A DNA stretch of 64,000 nt. It comes from Maylandia zebra (lineage: Eukaryota; Chordata; Actinopteri; Cichliformes; Cichlidae). Shown in pieces: positions 16,752 through 54,194 of this stretch. The stretch lies in contig NC_135170.1 of NCBI RefSeq assembly GCF_041146795.1, positions 2,143,326 to 2,207,325 on the forward strand, in the 5' to 3' direction. A program made the translations under genes and the position numbers. How positions within the stretch are numbered: position 1 is the stretch's first letter; each line of letters begins with the position of its first letter. The notes beneath the pieces were generated by a model. It saw only the letters and a program-made list of their open reading frames with translations. It ran no database searches and was not told the DNA's origin.

Positions 16752-17425
16752 TGTCACGGCTGCACAGCAGTCGTGTGGTGAATTGAGAAAAGGATCCAAG
16801 ATGCAGGCACTGACTGGGGTGCGAGTGAAAATTTATTTGCAGAGGTGATAAAGTGACAAAACAGGAAGAGCAGAGCGGGGAGTAAACAAACCTAAACTGG
16901 GAAAACTAAAGAACAAAACTTAAACCAGACACTCATGGGAGGAGGAGCGAAATGCACAAAGAGAGATGGCAGAGAGACGCAGAATGAATACCAGGTAACA
17001 GAATAATGCAGACTGACATGGAGTTAAACAGACGACGCGACAGAGAGCACATGAAAACACAGGGCTTAAATACATGGGGAGTAATCAGGGAATGGGCCAC
17101 AGGAGGGAGACACAGCTGGGAGCAATAAGGCTAACGAGACAGGGGAGAGGTAAAACTGAACACACTGACATGAGACATGAACTTTCAGAATAAAACAGGA
17201 AACTAACAGACACAGAGAACCAGACCGGACACTGAACTTGACAGGCAGACTCATGAGCAGACACAATAACACCATGGACAGACAGAGGGAACACAGAGAA
17301 GTGGAAGCAGGCAGGCAAAGAACAGAAACCTAACAAATGGCAAAATCACAACAGAATACACACTCTGAATGAACAAAAGCACAAGGAACACAAAACACTG
17401 AGTCCTCAGACTCAGGACCATGACA
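16752..17425 (-). repeat. 3' LTR (relative to the element)
   Basis: A 674-bp LTR almost identical to 20,291-20,964. It overlaps the end of the long minus-strand frame (stop at 17,251). Confidence 0.95.
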
Positions 17426-20046: not shown

Positions 20047-20272
20047 AATTGGCTACTTCCCGAGCTTGCACCGCTTCCTGGGCTTTATGCAGCTCAGCGA
20101 TTAAGTCTGTAAATCCCCGGACCTGGTGGAGATAGGGATTTCCGGCCAGGATTGCCTCAACGGCATTTATCCCCACAACTTTCGCTCGTGCATTGGAGGT
20201 GTGGGTTACCCAGTCCACCAGGCGTAGGGCACGTGTGAGGTCGCTCTCCCCGGCCAAGACCGCTGGATCCAT
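19844..20272 (-). CDS. Gag-like ORF1 of the LTR element
   Basis: Starts at the ATG (20,272) 19 bases inside the right LTR and runs 142 codons. The protein begins MDPAVLAGESDLTRALRLVD and contains a probable helical stretch (FTDLIAELHKAQEAVQARE, about residues 50-70). The last 65 residues overlap ORF2. Position directly after the 5' LTR and the Met-Asp start suit a retrotransposon Gag N-terminus. No capsid major-homology or zinc-knuckle motif is seen, so the Gag label is inferred from position. Confidence 0.6.
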   Translation of the reverse strand: MDPAVLAGESDLTRALRLVDWVTHTSNARAKVVGINAVEAILAGNPYLHQVRGFTDLIAELHKAQEAVQAREVANCAQQQWTTTATKHPSQIHPPEVSRPDPPRGFSLPVGAVSGGEETFAPPTLHPTAGFRDSCATSCGEC

Positions 20273-20290
20273 CTTGTGGTCGCGTCGTAC

Positions 20291-20964
20291 TGTCACGGCT
20301 GCACAGCAGTCGTGTGGTGAATTGAGAAAAGGATCCAAGATGCAGGCACTGACTGGGGTGCGAGTGAAAATTTATTTGCAGAGGTGATAAAGTGACAAAA
20401 CAGGAAGAGCAGAGCGGGGAGTAAACAAACCTAAACTGGGAAAACTAAAGAACAAAACTTAAACCAGACACTCACGGGAGGAGGCGCGAAATGCACAAAG
20501 AGAGATGGCAGAGAGACGCAGAATGAATACCAGGTAACAGAATAATGCAGACTGACATGGAGTTAAACAGACGACGCGACAGAGAGCACAGGAAAACACA
20601 GGGCTTAAATACATAGGGAGTAATCAGGGAATGGGCCACAGGAGGGAGACACAGCTGGGAGCAATAAGGCTAACGAGACAGGGGAGAGGTAAAACTGAAC
20701 ACACTGACATGAGACATGAACTTTCAGAATAAAACAGGAAACTAACAGACACAGAGAACCAGACCGGACACTGAACTTGACAGGCAGACTCATGAGCAGA
20801 CACAATAACACCATGGACAGACAGAGGGAACACAGAGAAGTGGAAGCAGGCAGGCAAAGAACAGAAACCTAACAAATGGCAAAATCACAACAGAATACAC
20901 ACTCTGAATGAACAAAAGCACAAGGAACACAAAACACTGAGTCCTCAGACTCAGGACCATGACA
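20291..20964 (-). repeat. 5' LTR (relative to the element)
   Basis: A 674-bp LTR with TG...CA tips, near-identical to the copy at 16,752-17,425. The minus-strand sequence next to it (GTACGACGCGACC) is where a primer-binding site would lie, but I recognise no tRNA match. Confidence 0.95.
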
Positions 20965-23919: not shown

Positions 23920-26399
23920 AATACAGAGACAAATATAAATAAAATATACAAAGGGGATAAATAGAATAAATAGGAATAAAAATAAAAATACAAGTGAATT
24001 GCACATTTCAAGTATTGAGTCTATTGCACTGTTGACTATTTACAAAAGTATTGCACAAGGTATTGTACAGTGAGGTGAAGAGGCACTACAGCTTAGTTGT
24101 TCCCCCCTCCTTTGTCCTCCTGTTTCCCCTCCCTCTCCCCTCCAGAGAGGAGTTAAACAGTCTGATGGCGTGTGGGACAAAGGAGTTTTTAAGTCTGTTA
24201 GTTCTTGTCTTGGGGAGAAGCAACCTGTCACTGAACAGACTCTTCTGATTGTTTATGGCCGTGTGCAGAGGATGCCCAGCATTGTCCATAATGTCCATCA
24301 GTTTCTTTAGTGTCCTTTTCTCTGCCACTGTCACCAGAGTGTCCAGCTTCATGCCGACCACAGAGCTAGCCCTCCTGATCAGTTTCTCCAGCCTGGATGA
24401 GTCCCTCTTTGCTGTGCTGCTCCCCCAGCACACCACAGCATAGAAAAGTACTCCAGCAACCACCGACTGGTAAAACATCCTCAGGAGCTTCCTGCAGATG
24501 TTAAAAGACCTCAGCCTCCTGAGGAAGTACAGTCGGCTTTGGGCTTTTTTTATACAGGTGCTCTGTGTTGCATGACCAGTCCAGTTTATTGTCCACCCAC
24601 AGCCCGAGGTACTTGTACTTGTTGACCACCTCCACCTCCTCCCCCTCTATCTGAACCGGCAGTGGACCTTCTCTGGACCTCCCGAAGTCCACAACCAGTT
24701 CCTTAGTCTTTGAGGTGTTGAGTTGCAGGTGGTTTGTGTGACTCCATGCGACAAAGTTCCTCACCAGACTTCTGTACTCCTCTTCCTGATCATCCCAGAT
24801 ACACCCCATGATGGCCGTGTCATCTGCAAACTTCTGAATATGGCATAATTCAGAGTTGTAGCAGAAGTCAGAGGTGTACAGGGTGAAGAGAAGAGGGGAC
24901 AGCACAGCTCCCTGTGGTGCTCCTGTGCTGCTGACCACTGTGTCAGACGTGATGTCCTTCAGCCTGACGTACTGTGGTCTGTCGGTGAGGTAGTCGGAGA
25001 TCCAAGCCACCAGGCAGGGGTCCACCTCCATCCTGTTCAGTTTTTCCTGAAGCATACAGGGCCGGATGGTATTAAAGGCACTGGAAAAGTCAAGAAACAG
25101 TATCCTGACCGTGCCTTTTCCCCCATCCAGGTGTGAGTGGGCTCTGTGTAGGAGGTACAGGATGGCATCCTCCACTCCGACACCTGCCTTGTATGCAAAC
25201 TGTAGTGGGTCCTGGGCATGTTGTACCTGTGGTCGGAGGAGGTTGAGGAAGAGCCGCTCTAGAGTCTTCATAAGATGTGACGTCAGTGCCACCGGTCGGA
25301 AGTCATTCAGCTCATTGGGCCGGTTCTTTTTGGGGACCGGGACGATGCAGGATGTCTTCCAGAGGGCGGGCACTCTCCCCAGTCGCAGACTGAGGTTGAA
25401 GACTCGTTGTAGCAGCTCCCCAAGTTCAGCAGCACATGCCTTAAGCATCCTAGGACACACCTTGTCTGGGCCTGCTGCCTTTCTGGGGCGAAGCTTCCTC
25501 AGTTGCCTCCTGACCTGATCCACTGTGACACTGGGAGATGTTTGGGAGGAGGGGAGGGGGGGAGATGTCTTGCTGCTGATTGGAGGAGGGGGGTGTCATG
25601 GTGTCAGGAAGGGGGGGAAGCGAGGGAGGCAGGAGAGTGGGGAGAGGACTCTGTAGTGAGGGTGAGGGTGGGGGGGTTGTGGGCTGGTCAAACCTGTTGA
25701 AGAAGTTGTTGAGTTCGTTTGCCTTCTCCACAGTCCCCCCCACTGTGCTTTTCTTGGTGTTGTGGCCTGTGATGGTTTTCACACCATTCCAGACCTCCCT
25801 CATATTGTTCCTCTCCAACTTCTGCTCCACCTTCCTCCTGTAGGTGTCCTTTGCTTCCCTCAGGCAGCGTTTCACCTCCCGCTGTGCTGCTTTCATCTCC
25901 TCCTTCACTTTGCTCCTGAAAGCCTTCTTCTTCATGTTGAGGACAGCTTTGACTTCCTGTGTTACCCACGGTTTGTTATTAGGATAACACCGTACCGTCT
26001 TAGCAGGGGCGACTGTGTCCACACAAAAGTTGAGGTAGTCTGTAAGACAGTGTGTCGCCCCCTCTATGTCCTCACCATGTGGGCTCAGGAGCACATCCCA
26101 GTCTGTGGTGTCATAGCAGTCTCTCAGAGCATCCTCCTTTTCTGGGGTCCATCTCCGGATGGAGCGCGTTGTGACAGGCTGCCTTTGGACGAGGGGTGTG
26201 TATTGTGGCTGTAGGTAAACCAGGTTGTGGTCTGACTTCCCTAGTGGGGGGAGGGGGGTGGCTCTGTATGCACCTCTCACATTAGCATACAGTAGGTCAA
26301 TTGTCCTGTTGCTCCTTGTGGGACAATAATAGTCCCTGTTCACTCTATGCTGTGTGTGCGTGTCCTAAATTAAAGGTAAGAACACACACTCTGACACAC

Positions 26400-29131: not shown

Positions 29132-29678
29132 CAACCCGTTCTCACTCCCGACGCGTAAAATAATGACGATTTGTCACGTCCCTTAACTTCTCATGCTGAC
29201 GCCTAAGGTACCCTTCCACCTTTTTATGTGACGCTGTGGGTTGTCAATTCATTCCAATATGAACGCGCTCGCGGCGATCAGAGACGCTTCGAGCAGAGGC
29301 TCCAGCCATCCATTTATTCCAATAATAACCCCGTCACGGCGAAACATGACGTCGTGAAGCACAATCTAACTGGAGACCCGGGGACCCTCTCCGCGAACGG
29401 GTTTTTCTCCCTAATTTAATGCTTTCTTTTAATGACATCGTTAACATTTCTCAACAAAAACACGTGAAAGTATCACTGATAATTCAACAATAAAATGGCT
29501 TCATGTTGTGGCCATCACACAGTGTTTTCCAAACTGATTCACGATCTGAAAGTGCTCAGATTTAACGTACATAATCCTTTGTTAGGTTTATTATTTTCAT
29601 TTCACACGTAAAACACATTTATAGATTCATTCACCACTCCTGTTAGTTTTGGATGCGCTCGGCTCCAGCCAATCAGAC
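29132..29678 (+). repeat. Left terminal inverted repeat of the KDZ element
   Basis: 547 bp, matching 43,751-44,297 in reverse complement with about five or six substitutions. Several CpG-rich motifs (GACGCG, CACGTCCC, GACGCC) crowd the outer 100 bp, which may serve as transposase binding sites. Confidence 0.95.
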
Positions 29679-30496
29679 CAATTTACGCAGACGCACTAAT
29701 CCCGTAACTGCACACTACCCATAATCCTCGACCGCCGTCGCTATGGGAATGAAGATAACAACAGCTTGGTGCTACCCGTTATTCCTTTATTTACTCTAAA
29801 ATAATAACCAGCGATAATACGAAATTAAACTGGCCCAGTGTTTAATTATGTAATTAAAAATTGCAAATTTTAGTATTTTATTTTTTACAAATTGCAATAT
29901 TTATCTACAGCGCGCCTTTAGCGACACGTCAACAGATCTTAAGCAAGGCGATTGGATGGTTTTTACTGCAATGCATCTTGGGAGTCGCAGTAAATGTATC
30001 TTTCAACTCACGGTCCTGCAGCGAAGTTTTCGACTGGACACGAGGCAGATCCTAGCTAAGTAAGTTGTGATAAACTGGGGGTAATTTGCATGTTCACTGA
30101 AATATTAATTTCAGTGATATTAAACTGATATTAAACTTGAAATGTTTTCACAGAGCAGTCTGTGTACCAAGAGAACTACTTCTGCAAAAGTTTATTTAAT
30201 TTTTTTTGTGATGTATTCTCATGTGTAAGACACTTGCTTGGCCACCCAGCTAATGTTAGTACTGCTCTATTTTAGCAATGTATCTTTTCTGTAATCAATT
30301 CAGGTTTTTTTTTAACCCTATTCACGTAATTAACTCAATATTAACGACTTTAATCTCGTAATTGATTTTTTTTCTAAATATGGTGTAATACTGCCTCGTA
30401 ACATAAGTTATTTCTTTGGTCATAAATTATTTTTGTAATCGTTTCACCAAAACAGACCTGAAATAATCCCTACATGTTCCATTTTCATTTGCAGAA

Positions 30497-33400
30497 ATGA
30501 CAAAGCCAAAAACCAAACCATGCCCTTCCTGTCAGGCCCCAAACACCTGCAACAGGAAGACATGCAGTGGATGCCTGGGCAGCCTGAACCTAAAGGAGGG
30601 ATTGAAAAAGAAACAAGAACAGTTTAAAAACAGTAACTGGGCTGCCTCTGTTAAAAACAACAGAAATGCGAGCAGGGTGGTTAATTCAGCCCAGTTGTCA
30701 GTAAGTTTAAAAGTTCTGATCTAATAAGTGGTTGGTCTGCTAGACAATTCTTTATTAATCACAGTTGTCAATGTTTTCTTGTATATCATGAAGTAAGAAA
30801 CTAACAAGACATGTATATACACATAAAATATTAATTTATAAAAGAGCATAAATAAAAAAAGTTATTCACATCAGAATAACATCATCACACTAAAGACATC
30901 CAACTAGAAAAAACTTGTTAAAAACTATTTTTATTTAAGCTACTTCTGATTTTTAATTTAATCGGCTATTAACTGAGAGACAAAACATTTCAAGATGGAT
31001 TTTATCATACATTTACAGGTTTGGTCACCATAAATACTTTTTAACTATCGACAACAATAAAACAACAAAGATGTGAAACTTAAAGGTTTGTTATACATCC
31101 GTTTGCTTACATGAAAGACTGGCTGCATGTTTTTCTTTGTTGTTCTTGCAGGTTTCAAAGCTACACGCCCTGGGCTACCAACCAATTCTGTTTCTTGGAC
31201 AGTTTGACCATAAGGGCCGTATAGTAGGGGACGTGATCACTCAGATCGAACCAGCGGAAGGTGCTGCACGTGACATCCTCATGAAGATGAGGAAGCTTTA
31301 TGAACACCTTCTGAGAAGTAAGATGTGCTTTGTCCATTATCTGTAACCAGGTGTCCTTATCAGGTAGCCTATCCTAGCTGTCTTTGGGTGATACTCATGG
31401 TACACCCTAGATAAGTAGGCAGATCATCACGGGGTACATAGAGACAAACAAGATGGTGAGGATGAGGATAGTTAACAGTCACCAGCTATTCTATTCTACT
31501 CTACTCTATTCTGTTCTGTTCTATTCTAGTATTCAGCCAAGTTTCAGACCAGTAACCTTCTTGCTGTGAGGTGACAGCTGTCCTACATGTCCTGTTGCTA
31601 ACATGAAAATAGTGTTATATCTGCCTTATTACCTCCCCATGTGTCGGTCACATCACCAAAGCTAGCCATACTGAACCTCTGGTGTTACCCACCTGAACAA
31701 TTTTGTATGTGTGTGTGTGTATAGTATGGTCTTTCACACTCATGTATATACAAATGTAATTTTAAAAATCTTCACAAAAACCAGACCTGATAATTCTCTT
31801 CGAGACTTTCTAGTATAACAAATGTTATATAATGTTACCAATATGAACACCAAGATTCTTAAATAACTTATATACTTCTTAAGAGGTCACCTGATTACCT
31901 CCCTGAGGTAGTTAGCATCACCATTGTACAAAACTCCTAAGTCACAGTACTAGCTTGAAGTGTCAAATGTTATTCACTACAAAGTCAGGAAAGTAGTGTC
32001 ATCAGAGGAAAAAGTCATTATCTATCTGGATTTATAGTCACACTCATTAATTTTTTAATGTACAATGTAGAAAAGCACTACAGATGTCACACTACCCCCG
32101 AGGGCACTTGTACTGAATGATTTGGGTCAGTGAGTGTGTGAGATGACTTATTTGATGCCAATATTTACCAGTTGTATCTTTAGTAAAACTTAACTGAAAA
32201 CATGCAAATCACTACTTATTATGTGTTTATGTGTACTGTACATTTTTTCAACCCATTTTAATGAATGTTTAATATTTAAAATTTTTCAGAATTACAAGCT
32301 TCACCTCCTGCTAAACGTTCTACACCAGCAGCTGGACCATCCTCTGCTGACAGTGTGGATGCTGGACCAGTCCCAGACCCAGAGGCTCTAAACCAGGAAT
32401 TTATTCTTCATTTAGAGCCTGAACCAACATCTTCCCTCTGTCAGCCTCCTGCATCCTCCTCTTCATCTCTGCTTCCTCCTGCATCCTCCTCTCCAGCTCT
32501 GCTTCCTCCTGTATCCTCCTCTCCATCTCTGCTTCCTCCTGCATCCTCCTCTCCATCTCTGCTTCCTCCTGCATCCTCCTCTCCATCTCTGCTTCCTCCT
32601 GCATCCTCCTCTCCATCTCTGCTTCTTCCTGCATATTCCTCTCTGTCTCTGCTTCCTCCTGCATCCTCCTCTCCATCTCTGCTTCCTCCTGCATCCTCCT
32701 CTCCGTCTCTGCTTCTTCCTGCATATTCCTCTCTGTCTCTGCTTCCTCCTGCATCCTCCTCTCTGTCTCTGCTTCCTCCTGCATCCTCCTCTCCATCTCT
32801 GCTTCCTCCTGCATCCTCCTCTCCATCTCTGCTTCCTCCTGCATCCTCCTCTCCATCTCTGCTTCCTCCTGCATCCTCCTCTCTGTCTCTGCTTCCTCCT
32901 GCATCCTCCTCTCCATCTCTGCTTCCTCCGGCATCCTCCTCTCTGTCTCTGCTTCCTCCTGCATCCTCCTCTCCATCTTTGCTTCCTCCTGCATCCTCCT
33001 CTCTGTCTCTGCTTCCTCCTGCATCCTCCTCTCCATCTCTGCTTCCTCCTGCATCCTCCTCTCCATCTCTGCTTCCTCCTGCATCCTCCTCTCCATCTCT
33101 GCTTCCTCCTGCATCCTCCTCTCCATCTCTGCTTCCTCCTGCATCCTCCTCTCTGTCTCTGCTTCCTCCTGCATCCTCCTCTCTGTCTCTGCTTCCTCCT
33201 GCATCCTCCTCTCCATCTCTGCTTCCTCCTGCATCCTCCTCTCTGTCTCTGCTTCCTCCTGCATCCTCCTCTCCATCTCTGCTTCCTCCTGCATCCTCCT
33301 CTCCATCTCTGCTTCCTCCTGCATCCTCCTCTCCATCTCTGCTTCCTCCGGCATCCTCCTCTCTGTCTCTGCTTCCTCCTGCATCCTCCTCTCCATCTCT

Positions 33401-35335
33401 GCTTCCTCCTGCATCCTCCTCTCCATCTCTGCTTCCTCCTGCATCCTCCTCTTCATCTCTGCTTCCTCCTGCATCCTCCTCTTCATCTCTGCTTCCTCCT
33501 GCATCCTCCTCTCCATCTCTGCTTCCTCCTGCATCCTCCTCTCCATCTCTGCTTCCTCCTGCATCCTCCTCTTCATCTCTGCTTCCTCCTGCATATTCCT
33601 CTCCATCTCTGCTTCCTCCTGCATCCTCCTCTTCATCTCTGCTTCCTCCTGCATCCTCCTCTCCATCTCTGCTTCCTCCTGCATCCTCCTCTCCATCTCT
33701 GCTTCCTCCTGCATCCTCCTCTTCATCTCTGCTTCCTCCTGCATATTCCTCTCTGTCTCTGCTTCCTCCTGCATCCTCCTCTCCATCTCTGCTTCCTCCT
33801 GCATCCTCCTCTTCATCTCTGCTTCCTCCTGCATCCTCCTCTCCATCTCTGCTTCCTCCTGCATCCTCCTCTTCATCTCTGCTTCCTCCTGCATATTCCT
33901 CTCCATCTCTGCTTCCTCCTGCATCCTCCTCTTCATCTCTGCTTCCTCCTGCATCCTCCTCTCCATCTCTGCTTCCTCCTGCATCCTCCTCTCCATCTCT
34001 GCTTCCTCCTGCATCCTCCTCTTCATCTCTGCTTCCTCCTGCATATTCCTCTCTGTCTCTGCTTCCTCCTGCATCCTCCTCTCCATCTCTGCTTCCTCCT
34101 GCATCCTCCTCTTCATCTCTGCTTCCTCCTGCATCCTCCTCTCCATCTCTGCTTCCTCCTGCATCCTCCTCTCCATCTCTGCTTCCTCCTGCATCCTCCT
34201 CTCCATCTCCACATCCTGCATCTCCCTCAATTTCTACGGTGTACACCTCGGATGTCCCAAACAAAAAAAGGACAAGGAAAGGTTAGACGTTATGGTATTG
34301 TAAATGTACGAAACACATGACAGGTTCGTTAAGTTTGTTAAGATTTCTTTTTCTTAATTTTTGCATTTTTTCCAGTTTTACAGAACTCATGTAAATATTT
34401 CATTTGTTATTTTTCAGAATGCCGAAAACACCGTACACAGAAGATTTTCAAATATGAAGAGATAGTAGACAGGAGAGTTGTAAATGTAAGTAATTTAGCC
34501 TGCTGTTGTGCAGATTTGTTTGCGTCTTTGGACTTCCCAGATTTGAACTGTGCCTGACTGACTATCCATAAGCTTTTGTATTTGATGAATCTTCACTAAT
34601 TCAGCCACTGAGTCAGGATTTCGCTCCAAATAGGAAATTAAATAAGAACAGACCACCTGATACGACCTGGTCATGCTGCCTTCCTGATGTTTACGTTCTT
34701 TAAAGTCCTCCTGACATCATGCTCATTATGAGTTTTGGAGGTGGACATGGTCAACACTTTTAAGAGTAGGCATAAGACTTTACTTCTTTATAGAGCTTAT
34801 AGTTAGGGCTGGTTCAGCTCAGCCCTTAGTTATGCTGTAATAGGACCAGACTGCTGGGGGTTAGTGTCCCCCCCCTCTCTCTCTGTCTCTTTCAGGGTTA
34901 TGCAGGCTCAGTATTGGTTGAAGATGCAGTCACGTCTCCTTTTACTGAAAACTCTCCCCCTCTCCCTCACCACCATCTGTAAACATACATGTCTCAGTAA
35001 TGCAGTTCATGCATGTTACTAACTAAACTTCTTCCCTGGAGTTTCTGTGCTCTCTCATCCAGCAGGTTCCGATGGATCGTGGCTGCTGCTGTGGTCCTGC
35101 TTGACGTCTGCTTCATATATTAATACTCTCTGACTTGATTTGATTAATTTATATTACAATGAAGGTGTATAAAGCATGACATGAATATAGAAGATATTTC
35201 ATCCTAAAAAATTGTCATATGTCACAACCTAAATTGTCCTATTTTGTGTGTGGTTGTTGTTTGTTATGTTTTTCTCCTGACAGTGGCAAAGTGTGGGATG
35301 ACACATGGGAACCTGCGCAGTTTTACACACAGTAA
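30497..35335 (+). CDS. KDZ-element partner protein: Cys-rich head, repeat domain, chromodomain-like tail
   Basis: Predicted coding exons are 30,497-30,700, 31,152-31,317, 32,290-34,281 and 34,418-34,485, with a last piece from about 35,284 to the stop at 35,333-35,335. All introns are GT-AG, and the first four exons join in phase (about 810 residues). Exon 1 has a Cys cluster (CPSCQAPNTCNRKTCSGC, residues 9-26) that may bind zinc. Exon 3 is mostly a 10-residue repeat (SSSPSLLPPA) encoded by the minisatellite. Exon 4 (KIFKYEEIVDRRVVN) resembles the first strand of a chromodomain, and the last exon (GKVWDDTWEPAQFYTQ) its TWEP end. The phases of these two do not match, so a middle exon is missing or unseen. 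A LINE-like insertion sits between them. Role unknown. Being encoded with the transposase suggests an accessory or targeting function. Confidence 0.65.
31360..32280. other. Intron with degenerate repeats
   Basis: Intron of the partner gene. It holds a degraded copy of the repeat family seen near 5,205 (GGTACACCCTAGATAAGT) and a short (TATTC)n-like run at about 31,486-31,530. No coding signal. Confidence 0.5.
32448..34208 (+). repeat. 30-bp coding minisatellite, about 58 copies
   Basis: The unit is close to CTCCATCTCTGCTTCCTCCT plus GCATCCTCCT. Variants differ mainly at the CTCCATC/CTCTGTC/CTTCATC and GCATCC/GCATATT positions. Positions 33,541-33,840 and 33,841-34,140 are identical 300-bp blocks of ten units, a higher-order repeat. 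It lies wholly inside the third coding exon of the partner gene and never breaks the frame. The long minus-strand frames over it are by-products. Confidence 0.97.
34660..35170. mobile_element. Degenerate LINE-tail-like insertion
   Basis: Phrases such as AGACTTTACTTCTTTATAGA, GCTTATAGTTAGGGCTGG and TTAGTTATGCTGTAATAGG resemble a widespread fish LINE 3' region. It lies in the last intron of the partner gene, where a central chromodomain exon would be expected. Family and ends are uncertain. Confidence 0.45.
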
Positions 35336-36839
35336 ACCAGGCACCACAGGTGGCAGAGATCGCACAGTTCACAGCTTGTAGTTCAGCATAAAAGTTCAAA
35401 ATAAAATATTTACTATACATTTCAACCAGTGTCTCTGTTTCACTCTCTAATTGTGGCTTAAGTACCTAACATATTCATGAATCTGATCGATCAATAATAT
35501 CTTCCCTGCACTCGACATCTCATAGTTTTACATATCAGCCAACATTATTGTCTACATGCTCATAAATATAGAAGTGACTTGCTTATTATAACATATTACA
35601 AGGTAAAGTAATACTGCACTGCAAGTAACACCTACTGTGTATGGGAGCCTAAAGCAAAGTTAACTGCACCAGTACCAGCTTCAGAACATATTGTATATTA
35701 TATGTTTCTACCTTTTTGTAATATGTCATGTTTAGATGCAGTGACAATTGCACATTTGGAGTTGTGGTCATATGTGGTTTTTATATACAGGGTATTAAAA
35801 AAATTGACATTTTTTGCTATTTTTCTTGTTTGTTTGCACAATATTATTGTGTACATATTACATATGTAACATTATGGTTAATATTATTATTAGATATCAA
35901 AGATACAATTTGATTGAGGGTTTTCCTGTCATAATTTCAATAAAAATGCAATTACACACGTAAACAATAGGATCAAAATAAACTTTTAAAAAGTCTGTTG
36001 ATCAAATGCTGATTTTCAAAACATTCTAGAGGAAAACAGAGATAAAATAATCTGAACAGTAACAGTGATCGTGGATGATGATGGAGGCTTCAATGGATTA
36101 TTCTGTTTCAATCAATAGGTTCGTATCTATGACAATAATTTGATAAGTTTAACAGGTTGGTTTAGGCCTGGCAAAAAAGCAAATATTCACAAACTTTTGT
36201 TTTTGAAGAATGTTGATCTTTTTTGGGATGAAGCTATCTGGCAAAATGAGACAGCCCTTTAACCTCATCTGTACGTCTATCATGTGGCTGTGGTACTGGA
36301 TTTTGGTTAGATGCATATGCAGGTTACAGCTGGGGAATGGCAGTATGTTGTGGATTGATTTGGCATGTTCAACCACTGTTACACCAAACTCTCTCACTTA
36401 TAACATGATCAAGGCCTCTTACCCAGTGTCATGGATTCTCTGTAGTTTTGGGGACACGGGGCCAAAGTCTGAGGCAATAAGTCAGATCAAAGAAGGCAAT
36501 GATTCTAAAATGGGAGTTTACTTATGTCATTGTATATATCCAGGAATATGTGCCAGAGGATAGTTGTCATGAAATCAATATTAAATCAAAGTATTCCTTA
36601 ATTACCACAGCTGACACGAGTTCTCCATAGCTGCCTGCTGTCTCAGGATCTGTCTCCAAAAAGGACCAGGGAGCGCTAACATGTTATGTTCTAAACTGAT
36701 GAAGAAAATGCACATTAAACATAGTATAAACTTACTGAGTGAAGTAATGTCAAGAGGATTCCTTTAGCTCCTATTGGGTTGGTTCCTTGATCAATGCAAT
36801 ACAGAATCATTAATCTGGTTTTATGTAATGTCCTCAAAA
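35336..36839. other. Gene-free middle of the KDZ element
   Basis: A/T-rich sequence downstream of the partner gene's stop. No recognised coding region. The frame at 36,210-36,563 shows no domain. Confidence 0.5.
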
Positions 36840-37625
36840 CATGTCAAAATGAGGCTCACTAGTCTGTGTGGCCTCCACATGCCTGTATGACCTCCCTACA
36901 ACACCTGGGCATGCTCCTGATGAAGTGGCAGATGCTCTCCTGATGGATCTCCTCCCAGACTCCAGGACTAAAGCATCTGCCCACTCCTGGACATTTTGTG
37001 GTGCAGTTGGTGGATGGAGCGAGACGTGATGTCCCAGATGTCCTCAAATGGATTCAGTTCTGGGGAATGGGCGGGCCAGTCCACAGCATCAATGCCTTCG
37101 TCTTGCAGGAACTGCTGACACACTCCAGCCACATGAGGTCTAGGATTGTCTTGCATTAGGAGGAACCCGGGGCCAACCGCACCAGCATATGGTCTCACAA
37201 GGGGTCTGAGGATCTCATCTCAGTACCTAATGGCAGTCAGGCTACCTCTGCCGAACACATGGAGGGCTGTGCAGCTCCCCAAAGAAATGCCACCCCACAC
37301 CAAAACTGACCCACTGCCAAACTCATGCTGGAGGATGTTGCAGGAAGCAGAAGGTTCTCCACGGCGTCTCCAGACTGTCACAAGTGCTCAGTGTGAACCT
37401 GCTTTCATCTGTGAGGAGCACAGGGCGCCAGTGGCAAAGTTGCCAATCTTTGTGTTGTCTGGCAAATGCCAAACATCCGGCACGGTGTTGGGCTGTAAGC
37501 ACAACCCCACCTGTGGACGTCGGGCCCTCATACCACCCTCATGGAGTCCATTTCTGACCGTTTGAGCAGACGTGCACATTTGTGGCCTGCTGGAGGTCAT
37601 TTTGCACAGCTCTGGCCTTTCTTTC
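36840..37625 (-). pseudogene. Tc1/mariner transposase fragment
   Basis: On the minus strand a disrupted Tc1-type frame runs from about 37,600 to 36,859. It includes FGSGSVLVWGGIS, the DDE-region motif QDNPRPHVA and the signature VDWPAHSPELNPFEDIWD, then after a frameshift the C-terminal end (FIRSMPRCCREVIQACGG). The DNA-binding N-terminus is missing and at least two shifts break the frame. It is a dead fragment nested inside the KDZ element. Confidence 0.9.
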
Positions 37626-38128
37626 CTACCCCACAGTACCTTCCCTTACCATTTGTTTCCTACTCTTTTACTTCTTCTTTGATCACGGTTGTCTTTCTAG
37701 ATAAGCAATTTCATTTGCTCTGGGGCGAGTCACTGGCTCGGGTGCATTCTGGGACTGTCAGTTCACCAGTGTGCTGGCATGCTTCTTAACAAACACACCA
37801 CTACAGCAAACATCTCAGTTGTACTTGTTGATTTCTTCGACAAAACACTGAACAAAAAATTTACTTGTGAGTGTGCTGCCTGGTGCTTTTAAATTTTGTG
37901 ATAATTTGAGCAGCCCAGAAAGCATCCCATAAATTAAATTATGTTATCGTATCTGAACATGTACACTAGTCATTAAATTAGATGGGAAATAATGATTCAG
38001 GGTAAACAACTGCACCAAGGGAATTCCATTTTTCTTCTCAAAATGTAAAATGTCTGTTGAAAAATCACATTGAACAGAGATGTGATTAACTTTTTATTTT
38101 ACCAAACATAACATCAATGATGACACAA

Positions 38129-41100
38129 TCAGTCTTCATCAGAAGTGCTCAAATCACTCTCAGTGGCATCGTCTGGAATGTCCTCCTCCTCCTCCGAGTC
38201 CATTTCCAGGAGTGGTTGGTGGCTGAGGATTCTCTTGTACACGTCCTTTACTTTGAGCATTTCAGCTTTCAGTTCACTTTGTTTTTTTAAAACCAGGCTA
38301 CAGAGTCCCTTCTGTGCATCCTCCGACATGCCAACAAAGGAGGCTGTAAAAAGAACAAAACAAATAAATGAGAAAAGTAAAAAAAACAAACAAAAAAAAA
38401 CATCACCTCATAAACACAAGGAATTAGGATGCTGTAATTAAACATTTTTTTAAAAGGGAGAAGGCAGTGTTAGCTAGCAATCTAGATATAGGTAAAAGAT
38501 CCAGTAAGACTTTAGCATCTGCTCTTATTTTCAATCGATTCATCAAAAAATTAATAAATAAATAAAGTGCTTACAGTCTGAGGAGATTGTCCCCAACACC
38601 ACAGAACGCATTCGCAACACTGTCCAGTGATGCTGCATCTCCCTGCAGAGCATCATCTCCTCCTCTCTCAGGCGCCTCACAGCCATCACCTTCTCAAAGA
38701 CCTTTCTCTTTGTCCGGAGGTCAGCAGCAGCTACAGTTTAACAACATCAGATGGGAAAACATAGCAGCATATTATGATTCAAGAACAAAACATTCAACTA
38801 CTGCTCAGATACTGGGAGTTTGTTTAAAAAGGATATTTAGAAATCAAGAGCTTACGTTCACTTGTGCTCTGCCAGGGCCAAACGTCGCTCTGCATGAGGG
38901 CATCACTGGATACGATTTGCTTTGTTGGTTCAGCGAGCTTGTTGTAGTCGTCAACAGCAGCCGCCAAGCGTTTCTTCTCAACTAAGATGACCTTGCGAAT
39001 TCTGTGTCGCCTCTTGTTGCTATCTGTAAATAAGCATAAAAAATTCACACCTTCACATAATGTATATAGTTACATTTTAATCTACACTCATCAATTTGTT
39101 TGCTGGAACAAATCACATCCAGCTTAAACAAACCTGGATCTGATTTTATTCTGTTTACAAAGTAGCTGCACAAGCTGTACAAACTCAGCATCAAACGGTC
39201 TGTTTCAAAGAAACTGGGACGTACCATTTTGTCTGTAAAGACTTTGTGTTCGCACTCTGATGATGACGACAAGCTCCTCTATTCGTGCCTGCAACGCTCC
39301 AAGGCTGCCATCAGTTTGATCACTTTCTAAGTGAGAGGAATATTAATCAGAGCACAGGATGAGTAACAGTCACCAAACTACACTGGACTCTGTAATCACT
39401 GACTTGATGACATTCATTATAAGACATCTGGAGCCTTCATGTGCTGCCATCTCATGATAATCATGAGATAACAAGTATGTTGGTGTTCAGGTTTATAAAA
39501 CCAACTAGTACGACATTATTTCAACCCAGGTTCTATCCAATTTGATGAAACGCAACAACTCTGCCATAAATTTGCTTTTCCAAGGCTTATTTTTCATTGT
39601 TTGTTGACACTGTCAGAAAGATCTTAACTCTAAGTTCTTTAATGAGGCCATGGTGGGTCCTATTGTTATACATGAGTGCATTATATTGAGACTCACCTTC
39701 AGCCCATTGCTGCAGTGTGTCGTCATCCACACCCAGCTCATTTCTGCTCGCATTCAGGCTCCACTTGTTCTCTAAGGATCCTTATGATCTAAGAATGCAT
39801 TCATAAATGTCATTCATATTGACATTAAAAGAGTACTGGTGTTTTCCCCCCATTACCACACACATTAAAATGGGTGTTGAAAAAATGACCTTTAGATATC
39901 GCTGGCTCAAAGTGCGGCCCAGTTGTTCCACTTTCCTTTTGTTCCACCCCAAAGCCAGGAGGGTCAGCATGTCTGTTCGCCCTGCATTTCAGTTAGTATA
40001 CAAATAAGAATGAATGAGCAGGAGACTGAGTGGAATCTCAGACACGGACACACACCTGCTTTAGACATGTACTTCGTTGTGATGGCCGCCCTAGACAGGA
40101 AACTGTTTACTTGTTCCACCTCTTCTCCAACTGTTGAACCGGCCCCATCCTGAAACGCACCTCCCCATTTGATCTATAGAAAGGAGGTCACAATACATGA
40201 CTGCTGAATTCATTCAACCTTATAACAAAATGTCTCAAACTAATCCAAAACTACAAGCTGCAGTATACCTCGCATTTCCAAGTGTGAGCCTTTGCATGCA
40301 TGACGGAGAGAAGAGGAAGCATTGACAAGAGGTTCCTCAGCTCAGGGCACTGCTGAGCCACCTTGGTTAAATAGGGGAAATATTTACAGGCCACATCGGA
40401 GCAAAGGAACGTAATATGTCCTGGGACGCTAGCTGCCAACTTCCTCTGGAGAAAAAGGGGGTAAGCAAAGATCTCCCCTCGAAACATGTTCAATGCAGCT
40501 AAGAGGACTCCGTGGCGACAAACAGCTATTTCCATGCCCTCCTCATCCAACTTCCCAGTGGACTTTTTGGACGACTCCTTTGCTGCAGTCCAAGATGAAG
40601 ATCCGCACAACCCTTTCCCCGGGACCTATACACTCAAAGATTTTAACATAAAAGACATGACATGATGAAGCCCTATCAGGGACAAACTTTTTAAAACAAA
40701 TGCATAACAATTAGCTGAATTAGCCTCGAGTCACACAAGACCTCAGATCTCCCCAGGACAGCACTGATAACACAAAATAAAAATCATGTTGTTTTTTTTA
40801 AATACACATGGTGACAAAATTAAGTACACATTAAGATAAAGTAAAGTAAATAGTATTACGACAACACCAAGAGAAAAATAAAAAAAAATATCGACCCATC
40901 CATATATGTCTACACACACACACACACACGTAAGTGTATATGGTTACGGCATTAACGTCATTTTAACAAGATTAACAGCACTAATATATATGTGTATCTT
41001 ACATGATTTGTGTGTCTCTGGATGTATTTCACAAACTCAGCAACTTCCTCATCTTTCTCAATGAAGACACCTTCAAAGTTCCCCTGCTCTGAAGTGCTGA

Positions 41101-43222
41101 ACGAACACAGTGACAGTTGTTTGAAAAGAAACATTAAAATACATTTTTCTACAAATCCATATTTGACTTATGTCCACAATGCATAATGTACCTTGCATTA
41201 GACTGAAAGCGATAAAGCTTGCGGTTTCCATCAACTGAGACGGCAAGCATGTGTGGAGTGCAGGCAGGGCAGCTAAAGCATGGCTCCTTGCACATCCTGT
41301 CCACCTCAAACTTTACAGCACTCCACTCCAAGAAACTTTTACTGAAGGCATCAGCTGATATTCGGCCATTCTTTTACATAGAGGACATACAACAGAATAT
41401 TCAAGGACAGTCATCATAAACATTGATTTGCACAATTTCCTTAAACTTGGCAAATTTAGGAACTCACCCTTCCAAAATGGGCTGTTCGTTCATCCAGCAT
41501 TTTGACAAATGCCTTAAGTGACATCCCTGGTGCAGCCTTCTTAATGTCATAGAAAGACTGAAAGGCATCCATTGAAAACAGGGTGCAGAAATTTAAGGTG
41601 CCAGGCCAATATCCACTACCCAGGATGTCCTTAACTGAGGGGGACCACATTAGGCCACAGCTGGTGCAGCTCACCACTGGCAGTGCAAGGTTATAACGGC
41701 CTTTAGAAAGGATAAGGATAAATTCAGTCATGGCTCAAAGCATTCATTTTTTTCATGTTGTTTTCAAATCGGTCTGGTAAATCCAAATGACCTTTGACAG
41801 GTGCCCACATATACTGCGGGCCGAGGGTAATTAAAACAAAGATAGCAATGCACAATTTGCAATAAAACCTCCAAACACATCTATTGTGTATGTAGTGTGT
41901 GACAAAAGGGCAACTTACCATTTATGGTTACAAGAGCCACAATTGCGCCGGGTGAAACCTCAACGTTACCTGCTGGGCAGTCACACACAGTCTGGCCTTT
42001 GCACAGGCAACAGCCGAACTAACATTAAAACACACAATATATATAAAAAGAATTAGAAATTAACTGATACACAATAAATATACAATAACAGCACCCACTC
42101 ATACTCATACATAGCAAGAAATGCACAAGACTTAAAAACTGTACCTATTGGCTTGTGAAACTCTGATGAAGGCTGCAAAAACCCTCCTGTTACTGCCTCT
42201 CTGCTGTGCAGGACAACGCGTGTGTGAACTGCAATATCACAGTCAGCACAAAGGAATGGAAGAGACAGGCAGTCCAGGCACCTCACAACTACTTGTTTGC
42301 CACACTGACACACACGGTGTGACTGTGGATCCAGAGTAGCTAACATATTGTCTATAAGACAAGGCCTGGCCTCTTTCCACTTTTGCGAGGACACCATATT
42401 TCTGATCGCCCAGTGAGTAGCAGCTGACTCAGACGACGTCTCACAAGTCATGGCTGCGTCCTCTTCTCCATCCTCCAACAACTGAAGGAGCTCCTGACGA
42501 AGCACCTCAGTTCCACACACTAACAGAAAAAAAATAAAGAAAGGAAGAAACTCTTCCACAAAGTGAAAAACACTCTGGGCAGTATGTTTCTTAGGACTCC
42601 ACAAAAGCCCTGCATAACTCAACTATAACAACAAATATAAAAGTAAACAGAAATCACAACATATACAAGAAGGTAAAGTACCTTTTGTTGGGTTGACACT
42701 GGCAACATAACCAGGTTCTTCACGTGGACATTGATGCTGCTCTCTGGACACTGGGGGGGGGGGGATGAAGAATATTTACTTACTGAAATTCTTTGGTGAA
42801 AACAAGTTGTGAGATAAAATCAATGGTTGTGTGAACACTGACCACGTGGCATGCAACTAGTACTTCGACTGGTTGATGGTCTTTGAGGAATAAAAGCTCC
42901 CTGTCTGTCACGTGTTTTCCAGCGCACTGGTCTTGGCTGAGGTTCACTCTGTGCATCATTCTACGCAATTAACAAGGAAAAAAGGGAACACCTAAAATAC
43001 AGTCCATGATTAAAGCAAAGATTATCAAACATCTTAAGTTAACCAACTTAATTTGACATAAACTTTAAACAAAAATTCAAATAACATAACGTTTACTCCG
43101 TACAAAATATGTGTTCCCTCTTTAACAACTGTTTCCACTAAAAATGTTACCTGCATATCTTGAAGGAGTTCGTCAGCAGCCTGAAGCTCTTCCTCCAGCT
43201 CGGGATCCTCTGAATCACTCAT
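38129..43222 (-). CDS. KDZ-class transposase, 16 exons, nearly intact
   Basis: Exons (minus): 43151-43222, 42843-42960, 42682-42750, 42145-42519, 41919-42018, 41468-41700, 41192-41370, 41003-41096, 40269-40625, 40056-40173, 39890-39981, 39697-39780, 39225-39326, 38856-39023, 38575-38730, 38129-38343. All are GT-AG, and phases agree at 13 of 15 joins. About 843 residues. A CxC-type cluster lies at about 165-205 (CQCGKQVVVRCLDC). SGYWPGTLNF follows, then CPACTPHMLAVSVDGN (about 354-369). The core has CRHGVLLAALNMFRGEIFAY, LCSDVACKY (D about 490), MHAKAH (about 522-527) and GEEVEQVNSFLSR (about 549). A basic coiled region and an acidic end (DLSTSDED) complete it. It is expected to catalyse excision and insertion of the element. 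Exceptions are joins 4/5 and 11/12, each off by one base. Confidence 0.88.
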
Positions 43223-43750
43223 TTTCAAGCTAAAGAGGAAAGAGATTTTTGCAGAACTCAGTGACATAAACACATAACTAACGCAACTCAAATGATTTTC
43301 AGTCTTGGCGCTCCGGTTAATGTTAGCAATTAACGTTAGCATCATCAGTTTGTAAAGAGCTAGCAGAACTCTTAGCGCAAAAACTGCTTTGCGCACCATG
43401 TGAGGGTATTTTGCAGCACACAAGTCCTTTAACGTTTGTAATAGATTTAATCCATCATCGTTGGATTAAATGGCTAATGCTGCAGTAGCCACGTGTAGTC
43501 GTTACCTAGCAAGCATGCTGACGGTAGCTGTAGCCATTTTTAAATACATTACACCGTTTCCGAGATCAGTCACCTCTGTTTGTTTGAAGCGTTTATGAAA
43601 AAACTAACTTTGAAACACACATCAAGGTATTATGTTAAATATATGTATTTTTTACATACCTGCATTAGAATCAATCAGTTCCGCCTCATTTTCTTATTCT
43701 TATAAATGGTTCTCTCCGTTCTCCCGTCAGCCTTTGCTTACACAGGTTGC

Positions 43751-44297
43751 GTCTGATTGGCTGGAGCCGAGCGCATCCAAAACTAACAGGAGTGGTGAAT
43801 GAATCTATAAATGTGTTTTACGTGTGAAATGAAAATAATAAACCTAACAAAGGATTATGTACGTTAAATCTGCGCACTTTCAGATCGTGAATCAGTTTGG
43901 AAAACACTGTGTGATGGCCACAACATGAAGCCATTTTATTGTTGAATTATCAGTGATACTTTCACGTGTTTTTGTTGAGAAATGTTAACGATGTCATTAA
44001 AAGAAAGCATTAAATTAGGGAGAAAAACCCGTTCGCGGAGAGGGTCCCCGGGTCTCCAGTTAGATTGTGCTTCACGGCGTCATGTTTCGCTGTGACGGGG
44101 TTATTATTGGAGTAAATGGATGGCTGGAGCCTCTGCTCGAAGCGTCTCTGATCGCCGCGAGCGCGTTCATATTGGAATGAATTGACAACCCACAGCGTCA
44201 CATAAAAACGTGGAAGGGTACCTTAGGCGTCAGCATGAGAAGTTAAGGGACGTGACAAATCGTCATTATTTTACGCGTCGGGAGTGAGAACGGGTTG
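43751..44297 (-). repeat. Right terminal inverted repeat of the KDZ element
   Basis: 547 bp, the reverse-complement partner of 29,132-29,678. The transposase start codon lies 529 bp inside it, so the repeat or its inner flank probably holds the promoter. Confidence 0.95.
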
Positions 44298-47200
44298 AGT
44301 TGGTGTACGGCGAGCTGTGAGAGGACAGAGATGGAGAACGCACATTTAACTCTTTAACAGGAGATACGTTACGACTAACAGACGACTGCTGTCTACATGA
44401 TGTCTTTGCAGCCCTTATGCTACATGTTACACAACTTTTCTTCATGCCAACAAGACTGAGGTGCCACATAGTCGACACATACAGCTGATTATGATGCATG
44501 TTTTACTATTGCTATGTTCACATCATCTGCTTGGCTTTATTACTGAAAGCCTGGAGATCCTCTGACGTGTGCATGGCTGATGTGAAGTATGATTAGTCCT
44601 ACATGACATCAACAGCAGAGGCAATGAAAGCTTTGTTGTTAACAGGTTGTAGGTAAAGTCAAATGTCTACTTCTACACTTGTGTTGGGTAAAGTTCTTCT
44701 CACTGCAGCAGATTTATATCTGTGCTTTCACAGGGCGTGATGTGGAGCTCAGCGCTGAGGTGCAGGTCTCCTTGGAGACGGCATCCTGGCTGAAATATTA
44801 TCATGCTTCCAAAACATTTCAGCTTTTATTTTGAAAGAAACAAGACTTGAAAACGAGTCCCCTTCTTCCTCTTTGTCTTTGTTCTTCAGAGGAGTGTCAC
44901 CTGGACAAACTCAGGGCTGTTCTAGAGCCTTTCTTATTATTTGACTCCATAGAAATAAAACTGAATGGAATCAAACAAAAACTCCCAAACAGCTAAAACA
45001 CTTTGCTTTATTCTCTTTTTTAACAAATACGTTGAAGTCCATCCACAACAACACAGCTGAGATCTCCTTTGTAATCAAGTGTTTCCATCCTTTGTACAGA
45101 TCTGCATACAAAACAATCATTTACGTCCCACAGAAGTCTAGTTACACGTAACTATACAAGAACTGGTGAATGACAGAAACATGAGACACATGATCACAGG
45201 TGATAACAAAAAGAGAAAGAATTCATGTGTTAGTGATGTTTTTCAGCCCTGATGGCTCATGTTGGAGAAACAAGCTGAGGTACGTGGAAAGTTCACACAC
45301 ACAAGTGGGCGTGAGCGCACACACAGAGAGAAACACAACTGAAGCATCTGTTTGCTGTTTCTGCTTTCATCATCTCTGCTGCTGTGTCAGGCTGGGGTCT
45401 CTCAGTGACGTGGTTGAGGTGAAGTATGACGAGTATCCCTGATTCAGTCCATCGAGACAAAGGGCAAAGAAAGCTGTTGTTAACAAACTCTATGGTGATG
45501 TGGCATTTAGCTCTGACTCTACGCTCTGCTGAATCCTTTGAACCTGCTGATCAGTAAAGCTCTACGTGCTGCAGCAGATTGACCTCATCTGTGTTCACAG
45601 GTGTGGACCTCAGCGCTGAGGTGCAGGAGACTTTCATTCAGTTCTCCCTGCAAACAGCATCCAGCCTGGAAATACTGTCATCTTTCCCAGAAATGGTGCT
45701 CTTATCTCAGAGAAGAAGTCTGATGTAAATAACTGCAATCAACATAACTGCAATCAATAATGCCAACACGATGACTGTTCATAGCTCCTGCTTTGAAATA
45801 CTGAACTTAAACATTGACCTGATGAAAGATCACAATTCACAGTGGCCCACTGTCAGAATCATTCTGAATATAAACTCATCGAGTTAATCTGAACCTTTCT
45901 CAAATGTGCTGTGAATAAATGCTGCTGCAAGCCACTGTGGGAAAGCTGTGTTATTATCATGGAAACATCTGTGACACATTCACAGAGGACGAGGACACAA
46001 AGGGACGACACGCAGAGGCTGTGTTAAAGTCAAAAATCCAAATCTTTAGTCCTAAACAGGCAGTGGTTACAAACAGGAAGACGAGCAGTCCATTAAACAG
46101 TCTACAGGGTCAAACATACAGAGAATTCAAACAGCTATTAAAAACAAATAACTGGACACTGAAAAACTTCAGTGATGTGTGAGGCACCAAAGGGAAGCAG
46201 CTGAGTATATTCAATGAATTCTCTTCAAATACAAAGACAGAAACTCCTACAGGCAGCATGCAAACTGAGCAGGATACACAAAGATCAGAGATTACAAAAT
46301 AAATCAGACAAGGATTTCAAACTTACTGAGAGCAAGGCCTCTGTTACAAATCTGTCTAATAGAAAAACATGCTGTACAGATACAATACGCTCAGTGTTCA
46401 TGGTCATTTAAAAACTGGCTCTACCTGAACCACTTCAATATTTTATGAAGTCACTGAGTCGACGATTTCTACACTTTGTTTCCTTCATTGCAGTCAGAGT
46501 GTGGCTGGTAAGGATGAAAACACACACAGAGCGTAAATTGTCTTTGTTAGTAAGAAACGTCAGCAAAGAAAAGACAAAACACACAAACACTCTCATGATA
46601 TTCATGAATCATTAGAAAGCATCCAAACATTCTGCTCGTGGACTTTTACAGTCTTATTTGCACTCGCTCATCTTCATAATCATCCTGATCAATACATGAC
46701 AGGGGAGGCTTTGAGGTAGGCGGGGCTCTCTGCTGATGTCAGCATGAAAGGCAGGACCAGCGTCTGCCACATGTTGGTGAAACATCACAGTACACTGGCG
46801 TGGTTTCCTTTCCAGATGTTGGACGTTTGACACTTCAACGTTGAGGCCAACAAGAAGACACAGTTTTGGGTCGGGTTGCTGCAGGGTTTCTAACTGAGCA
46901 AAAGCAGAAGCACACAGACCAACAGGGATCAGATGCTGAGTGTTAGAGGAACATCTGTGCTGATCACTGAATGCTGCTGTGGTCTCTTGTTGAAGTTGGC
47001 TGGTGGGACAGTCTAATAGTGATATCCTGCCCATCGGAGGAACACTTTTAAAAACACATGCAATACTTTGTTTGTATTACAGTCACAGTTTATGTTATTT
47101 TTGTCCTTTAAAAGTGTTGCTGTACTATAAAGTCCTATAATTTGAGGCTAAAACGGCTCAGAGTCTCTCTCTCAGAGGATCTCCTTTGAAAGTGGAGACG

Positions 47201-52111: not shown

Positions 52112-53978
52112 TCAGTTCAACACAAGTTTAAATGATTCTATCTGAACTCTGTGGAGCCTGATCTCAAGCTTTTTGAGTCTGACACAGAAACCAGAGGATC
52201 TTTCTGTGTCTTCAGATTCACTGTGATCCAGTGATGGGAGTGATTTCAGCCCTGAGTGATCGCGCTGATGTTTGCACAGAGCAGACAATGAGGTGAATGT
52301 TTGGGCACATTGGTAACAGTGAAACAGTTTATTAGTAACGTGGGATCGTTTGTGTGCAGAGTATGAACTGAGATTCCTGAAGCTCTTGTCACACTGGTCA
52401 CAGCTGTAGTTTCCTTCCATGTGCGTACGTTCATGCCTGTTACGACCATGTGAATGTGAGAAGCTTCTCTCACAGTGTCTGCACTTGTGTGGTTTCTCTC
52501 CTGTGTGGACTCGTTTGTGTCTTTTAAGTTCACCTTCAGTGGTGAAGGATGACCCACACTGATCACAGAGGTGCTTTTTAACCCCACTGTGAATCAGTTC
52601 ATGTCGTTTTAAATCACTTGATGTGGTGAAGCTTCTCCCACATTCTTTGCAGTATTTCAGTTTGTCTCCAGTGTGTCTATGTTGATGTACTTTTAGGGTA
52701 TTTTGCTGACTGAAGGTTTTTCCACAGAGGTCACAAAGAAAGTCTTTCCCACCACCACAGTGATGACAGGGTTGAGAACTGGATCCATCTGTGTCGCTCT
52801 GCTTCTAAACAAAGACACAAAGACAGTGTAAGTCAGTCCTTCAACATTTGTATCCTGAACGTCGCCTGAAATAAAGAGCATCTCTGCAGACGTCCAACTA
52901 CATTTGACTGTTTCAGTTAACACACTCAGTTTACTGGGCTGCAATAACTACAATACTACCACCATAATACTACAGTAATACTAAAATCATAACTGAAAGG
53001 AAAATCTGAATAATCACTCAGAGCTGCTTTTCCATGCAGTAGAATTGCTAACATGCTAACACAGTTTAATGAGCAGAGTTGTTCCAAACAGTCAGGCTAA
53101 AATGACAAGATAACAATATAAATACATACCTCACAGTAGCTGCACTTGTAGAGTCTCTTTCTGGTGTGGATCTGTTGGTGTTGTCTCAGGTCATGTGGAG
53201 ATTTAAAAGTCTTCTCACACAGGTCACATTGATAAGGTCTCTCCTCAGTGTGGGTAAACATGTGTCGTTGTAACTGTGCGTCTGTTGTAAAGTATTTGCC
53301 ACACTGTTCACAGCAGTACACATCATGTCTGGTGTGAATGCGTAGGTGTTTATTTCGGCTCTCTCTCAGGCTGAAAGTTTTTCCACAGATGTCACAGCTG
53401 TATGCCTTAATTCCAGAGTGGGTAACTAGATGCTTCTGTAAGCTGCTACTTTGAGTAAATGCTCTGCCACACTGATCACAGCTGTACGCTTTAACTCCAC
53501 TGTGGATGAGTTGGTGTTTTTTTAGGTAACCCTTCCTGGAAAAAGACTTTCCACACAAGTCACAGCTGAACGGTCTCTCTCCAGTGTGGATGACCTGATG
53601 CTGTTTTAGTTTAGCCTTCTCAGTAAAACCCTTCCCACACTCGTCACAGCTGTATGCCTTAATTCCAGAGTGGGTACCTAGATGACTCTGTAAGTTGCTA
53701 CTGTGAGTAAAAGCTCTGCCACACTGATCACAGCTGTACGCTTTAACTCCACTGTGGATGAGTTGGTGTGTTTTTAGGGAACGCATCCAGGAAAAAGACT
53801 TTCCACACTGTTCACAGCTGAACGGTCTCTCTCCAGTGTGGATGACCTGATGCTGTTTTAGTTTAGCCCTCACAGTAAAACCCTTCCCACACTCGTCACA
53901 GGTGTGTTTTTTCTCTCCCTTTCTTCTGTGAGGTTTGTCGGCCTCCTGAGAGCGCTGACTTCTGGCTCCATGTTGGTC
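52112..53978 (-). CDS. C2H2 zinc-finger protein, 15 fingers, 5' end missing
   Basis: Two coding exons, 53,130-53,978 and 52,112-52,804, joined in phase 0 by a GT-AG intron, give 513 residues without a stop. The first exon has nine C2H2 fingers with TGERPF- or SGIKAYS-type linkers, beginning CDECGKGFTVRAKLKQHQ. The second has six (for example CKECGRSFTTSSDLKRHE) and a finger-free tail of about 60 residues. C2H2 arrays bind DNA, usually as transcription regulators; the target is unknown. The finger frame has no suitable ATG at its start and the exon begins at a splice acceptor. A 5' exon, perhaps with an effector domain, must therefore lie upstream; I could not find it. Alternating similar fingers suggest internal duplication. 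The upstream part was copied in inverted orientation to 3,860-4,572. Confidence 0.88.
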
Positions 53979-54194
53979 CTGCAGTGACAGAGATACAAAC
54001 AGAGGCAGTGAGTGAAATGCAGTCGTGGAACAAACTCAGCCTTCAAACTCCATTAACACTAGTTTTAAACCTGAAGGTGGAGCGTGGCACCAAACACCTT
54101 AAAGGTCTCTTATCCCCACCTGCTGGTAGTTCTAACACATTACATCCAACCTGCTGTTAAAGATAATTCATGACTGTTCAAACACTAAAATCAT

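Follow-up and report, generated by a model that had tools for sequence, protein, structure and literature searches.

A two-gene KDZ transposon in the cichlid Maylandia zebra with a likely chromatin- or DNA-binding accessory protein

DDE-type transposases move elements by cut-and-paste and insert them with a stagger. KDZ elements are known in fish (Zisupton), fungi, algae and nematodes (PMC9297572, PMC7599744, PMC12477816, PMC12730594), and members with accessory genes have been described from fungi and brown algae (PMC12730594, PMC12477816); here and below, statements on published systems draw on the available parts of the cited papers. Zisupton makes 8-base-pair (bp) target-site duplications (PMC12730594) and its protein carries a CxC7 cluster at residues 1333-1393 (PMC12062965). 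We describe here an element in a 64,000-nucleotide stretch of the Maylandia zebra genome (contig NC_135170.1; the whole stretch is called the window below), in which a KDZ transposase gene and a second, convergent gene lie between long inverted ends. The ends, both genes and target-site duplications recur together in this genome, and one insertion has exact empty-site counterparts. On balance we think it probable that this element is a KDZ-superfamily DNA transposon to which both genes belong, and that the second protein is an accessory factor which steers the transposition complex to silenced chromatin or maintains it there. The parts of the element in the window are the following.

29132..29678, plus strand: left terminal inverted repeat, 547 bp, starting CAACCCGTTCTCACTCCC
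30497..30700, plus strand: second gene, exon 1, with the N-terminal CxxC..CxxC, zinc-ribbon-like
31152..31317, plus strand: second gene, exon 2, part of a helix-strand-strand-helix region
32290..34281, plus strand: second gene, exon 3, a linker, chiefly the coding 30-bp array
32445..34209, plus strand: 30-bp tandem array, 58.8 units, in frame, inside exon 3 of the second gene
34418..34485, plus strand: second gene, exon 4, where the chromodomain-like region starts
35284..35332, plus strand: second gene, what is left of its last exon, encoding the tail of the chromodomain-like region; the exon before it has been deleted
36968..37645, minus strand: nested Tc1-like transposase remnant, between the two genes
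38129..43222, minus strand: KDZ transposase gene in 16 exons, with frame breaks in exons 5 and 12
40269..40625, minus strand: exon encoding part of the KDZ catalytic domain (PF18758, Pfam)
41468..41700, minus strand: exon encoding most of the CxC3 cysteine cluster (PF18804, Pfam)
43751..44297, minus strand: right terminal inverted repeat, 5 mismatches against the left arm

The two arms form an ungapped inverted match of 547 bp with 5 mismatches, and they enclose both the minus-strand transposase gene and the plus-strand second gene, whose coding starts lie, from the coordinates, 529 and 819 bp from their respective arms. Near-identical ends of equal length around two convergent multi-exon genes were what the first-pass annotation had read from these letters; both points hold. 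The arm has at least 42 matches in the 962-Mb M. zebra genome, where the window lies at C4:2143326-2207325 (40 of 392 candidates scored), and for this reason the inverted arms of the window are not a product of chance. Twenty of the 42 can be paired, which gives ten elements between 9.8 and 21.7 kb long, the window copy included, and the remaining 22 are single ends, fragments and same-direction pairs. Both genes are present and convergent in all ten paired copies (in C2a the transposase is cut and stops within exon 7), so that the repeat does flank the plus-strand gene elsewhere; had it never done so, the reading of the first-pass annotation would have been refuted. The termini read CAACCC..GGGTTG in nine of the ten, the exception being C18 with its damaged right end. 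Target-site duplications flank seven copies, of 7 bp at C3a, C19, C15, C2a and C33 and of 8 bp at C6 and C9; none was found at C18, the window copy or C4b. The C15 copy is inserted in Tc1 transposase sequence (recognised by eye), and its flanks, rejoined with a single duplication, are matched at 233/233 bases at all 40 places listed (40 of 897 candidates scored). These places are empty sites, and they fix the boundary and the duplication of this copy. The search for empty sites that the first-pass annotation had proposed thus gave exact ones for C15, and none for the window flanks (see below).

The same two-gene convergent layout occurs in a distant lineage at C22:19558764-19575214, where the inverted ends are ~1.63 kb long and 99.5% alike. 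The second gene there (P0156, six exon matches) is ~45% identical to that of the window, the transposase is 36-64% identical in matched exons to P0032, a close relative of the window transposase, and the ends, CAACACGTTCTCACTCCC, keep 17 of the 18 terminal bases of CAACCCGTTCTCACTCCC; a 7-bp duplication, CTATATA, read by eye, stands on both flanks. A copy at C1 has, by position, the same gene pair, and a C21 copy of the C22 lineage has an end present and no KDZ match among those listed. Because the pair recurs in 10/10 copies and in the distant C22 lineage, the second gene is part of the element, as had been supposed, and the 10/10 copies with both genes also rule out that it is a chance neighbour. 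An arrangement of two adjacent elements, in which the ends are those of the transposase and a neighbouring second gene became enclosed by chance or by segmental duplication, would draw on the fact that the window copy and C4b share flanks, thus representing one event and not two; yet even with these two counted once the pair is found in nine genomic settings, and again in a distant lineage with different ends, and we give this arrangement next to no credence.

A third family was also observed, at C11:19425636-19437181 (~11.5 kb), with ends 82-84% like the first 342 bp of the C22-lineage ends. A piece of its interior is present at at least 40 places (40 of 187 candidates scored), which have no KDZ-domain or second-gene match among the genome matches listed, and the first half of the one copy read, C11:19425836-19431835, has an exon resembling ARL6IP6 (PF15062, E 2.2e-11). 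The family seems to be of a non-autonomous KDZ-type element that has captured an exon of the host.

Genome matches to the second gene cluster into 36 loci, of which 22 have an end repeat upstream (sought within 6 kb on the plus and 9 kb on the minus strand), 14 have a convergent KDZ match within 25 kb, and 13 have both; at the 22 the nearest upstream end repeat is at most 2.8 kb away, except for C18 (8.5 kb). The gene is therefore multicopy, rather than confined to single-copy loci without the transposase. Thirteen loci, six of them single-exon matches, have neither an end repeat nor KDZ and may include a host-resident relative. Database entries agree with the pairing in that M. zebra LOC112434373 (second gene, P0007) and LOC112434374 (KDZ, P0037) have neighbouring gene numbers and lie on contigs of equal length; linkage through a shared contig, considered for Silurus P0153/P0133 and Paramisgurnus P0189/P0054, was rejected as too weak, as those contigs measure tens of megabases. 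The database models P0030, P0036 and P0091 apparently fuse the element, its nested Tc1 or exon 2 of the second gene with other sequence, and seem to be annotation artefacts or exonisation.

Counted from the transposase side, by hand, 13 of the 21 KDZ-domain matches in the genome have a convergent second gene within ~12.5 kb and 8 do not. Weighing against our reading are the many transposase loci that lack a second gene, and C3 54.3-60.0 Mb, where at least 25 loci, all on the same strand, carry one transposase exon set and no second-gene match; the latter is seemingly a KDZ fragment amplified within a larger repeat. Since so many transposase loci do without it, the second gene may not always be needed and may be dispensable in some cases. 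Such loci would also suit a host gene that was caught once and merely rides along, as would the damage to the second genes of the window copy and C4b and the host-like ARL6IP6 exon of the related 11.5-kb family. The nested Tc1 remnant (Pfam DDE_3 above its cut-off, HTH_Tnp_Tc3_2 below) is likewise carried by most of the ten copies: seven (window, C4b, C15, C6, C9, C18 and C19) have it whole, C3a has part of it, in C33 it is split, and C2a lacks it. A mere passenger would, however, hardly have been kept as a family of coding genes, with near-invariant cysteine columns, in two lineages and in many fishes, and no unmistakable single-copy host parent appears among the matches, the 13 loci without end or KDZ being unexamined; we regard this explanation as improbable.

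The window transposase, with exon boundaries (43222..38129) chosen manually at AG/GT sites, matches the KDZ domain PF18758 at E 5.5e-18 and the CxC3 cluster PF18804 at E 5.1e-15, in agreement with its first assignment as KDZ-type. In the close relative P0032, PF18758 matches at E 1.8e-32 and covers 3-217 of 217. KDZ and CxC3 are the sole matches at E <= 0.01 in P0032 and P0058, and the relative P0081 has an extra PIN_12 match below its cut-off. D341, D462 and E521/E522 (P0032 numbering) have a rounded frequency of 1.00 in the non-gap rows of 85 aligned transposases, and are candidates for the catalytic-triad residues.

The element thus has the features by which the KDZ superfamily is recognised, i.e. 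PF18758, the CxC3 cluster, and defined ends with a target-site duplication (the last not at the window copy). It resembles the platyfish Zisupton in its fish host, its inverted ends and its KDZ transposase of many exons (PMC9297572, PMC12062965, PMC12730594), and differs in having CxC3, near-relative transposases of ~770-880 amino acids that share this cluster, 547-bp ends and a second gene. The CxC7 cluster was not found by Pfam in the relatives P0032, P0058 and P0081, which stand in for the damaged window protein. Platyfish Zisupton, the subject of Bohne et al. 2012, reportedly consists of one coding sequence. In contrast to the 8-bp duplications of Zisupton, those of the cichlid element are of 8 bp in 2/7 copies and of 7 bp in 5/7, and of 7 bp at C22. 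The CA..TG termini are a likeness to Kyakuja of mushrooms, and so in part are the duplications, which are of 7 bp in Kyakuja and of either 7 or 8 bp in the cichlid element; Kyakuja, as described from two mushroom families, differs in having no inverted repeats and a TET/JBP gene where the cichlid element has 547-bp inverted arms and a different second gene (PMC12730594). Compared by description rather than by a transposase tree, the cichlid element fits neither Zisupton nor Kyakuja fully. Like the giant KDZ elements of Ectocarpus, it exceeds 10 kb; in those families copies have nested insertions in common, many of them carry extra genes and the transposases are often pseudogenised; they belong to a brown alga, and their accessory genes are mostly of unknown function, with no chromodomain-like one named in the available parts of that source (PMC12477816). 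Such a second gene was not found for fish KDZ elements in the searched literature, in the parts available and with Repbase not covered. The first-pass annotation had called the two-gene layout an undescribed system; this is too broad, since KDZ elements with accessory genes are known, and it is only the accessory gene and the fish lineage that look undescribed within the searchable literature.

The second protein belongs to a family found in fishes, whose members have paired cysteines at the N-terminus, then a hypervariable linker, and at the C-terminus a chromodomain-like region into which a CxxC is inserted. Its four exons in the window (30497-30700, 31152-31317, 32290-34281 and 34418-34485) join in phase, the N-terminal CxxC..CxxC pattern is kept in 49 of 51 aligned relatives, and the coding 30-bp array of the linker varies among the ten copies between 5 and 62 units. 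A profile of the 51 sequences returned 33 PDB matches, 32 to named chromodomain proteins and one to a chain without characterization; every one of them is weak (E 0.054-0.82). Predicted models of the C-terminal region, with a predicted local distance difference test (pLDDT) score of 75-96, place chromodomains first in Foldseek (best E 0.13 and 0.029), and superpose on the best-fitting HP1/CBX structures with a root-mean-square deviation of ~1.6 over 39-42 residues. Eighteen of the 51 match Pfam Chromo PF00385 at E <= 0.1, and none of the second proteins reaches its cut-off of 25.1 bits, the best being P0167 (21.8) and P0003 (18.6). MMU163, Sulfotransfer_4, Cornifin and other Pfam matches below cut-off were set aside as noise, and a uL30m profile match did not reappear with the larger profile. 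The second protein is most likely, we infer, an accessory chromatin- or DNA-binding factor.

In the mechanism that we favour, the transposase would bind the long inverted ends and then excise the element, which would be inserted with a 7- to 8-bp stagger. The paired-cysteine and helix-strand-strand-helix parts of the second protein may bind DNA or the transposase, and its chromodomain-like C-terminus would recognise marks on chromatin and in this way steer the complex to silenced chromatin or keep it working there. A chromodomain carried by a transposon and tied to chromatin targeting is also seen in chromodomain Gypsy retrotransposons (PMC12477816); in Gypsy it is fused to the integrase, whereas the cichlid one, into which a CxxC is inserted, would be carried by a DNA transposon on a protein of its own. 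The resemblance of the cichlid region to HP1 and MPP8 would equally serve a second protein that, instead of steering insertion, shields expression of the element, where it competes for marked chromatin with chromodomain proteins of the host. By analogy, the TET/JBP genes of fungal KDZ elements are thought to help them escape silencing by methylation (PMC12730594); against a shielding role, no enzymatic domain was found in the second protein. We hold such shielding to be unlikely, if less so than passive capture, and the present data do not separate the targeting role from it.

The window copy is itself a damaged relic, duplicated together with its neighbourhood. Its transposase exons 5 and 12, where the frame breaks, match relatives only in part; its second gene lacks the exon for the middle, or core, of the C-terminal region, with ~460-480 bases of C3a absent near 34724-34745. 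C4b has the same defects plus further stops, and the database models P0031, P0032 and P0003 are free of the breaks. Over 1 kb the flanks of the window copy and C4b are 99.8% and 99.7% alike; since they are shared, a single insertion event was later duplicated. A target-site duplication of 3-14 bp was sought at the window copy and none was found. Its rejoined flanks gave no empty site among 40 matches (40 of 246 candidates scored): the right flank, which is a high-copy repeat, accounts for 37 and the left for 3, the latter all beside an end repeat of the element. We read this tentatively as later rearrangement or recombination between copies. The right flank, 44298-44597, belongs to a young repeat that is present in near-identical form at no fewer than 37 places; many of these are spaced along C4 1.2-2.2 Mb, which may be an ampliconic region. 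Elsewhere in the window, all on the minus strand, 2293-3351 encodes a DDE_Tnp_1_7 transposase (PF13843, E 6.5e-55), which we take to be piggyBac-like; 24501-25595 and 53097-54035 encode a reverse transcriptase (PF00078) and a C2H2 zinc-finger array; and 17251-20371 holds open frames of 933 and 175 amino acids, the long one largely Pro/Ala/Ser repeats, in which Pfam finds no family at E <= 0.001.

For the family as a whole we put forward, tentatively and as something possible rather than probable, that fish KDZ transposons have two components: transposition would require, or be directed by, a chromatin reader that the element encodes as a separate protein (a zinc ribbon, a DNA-binding-like middle and a chromodomain-like end into which a cysteine pair is inserted), and this reader would have accompanied the transposase from before the split of the two lineages. 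The cichlid element offers a vertebrate counterpart to the fungal KDZ elements that carry epigenetic-modifier genes. The 'uncharacterized proteins' of fishes (65 database matches) become a transposon accessory gene with a testable role, and the hypervariable coding array could be used as a copy-by-copy marker. Chromatin reading by cut-and-paste transposons through a separate protein would thereby become directly testable.

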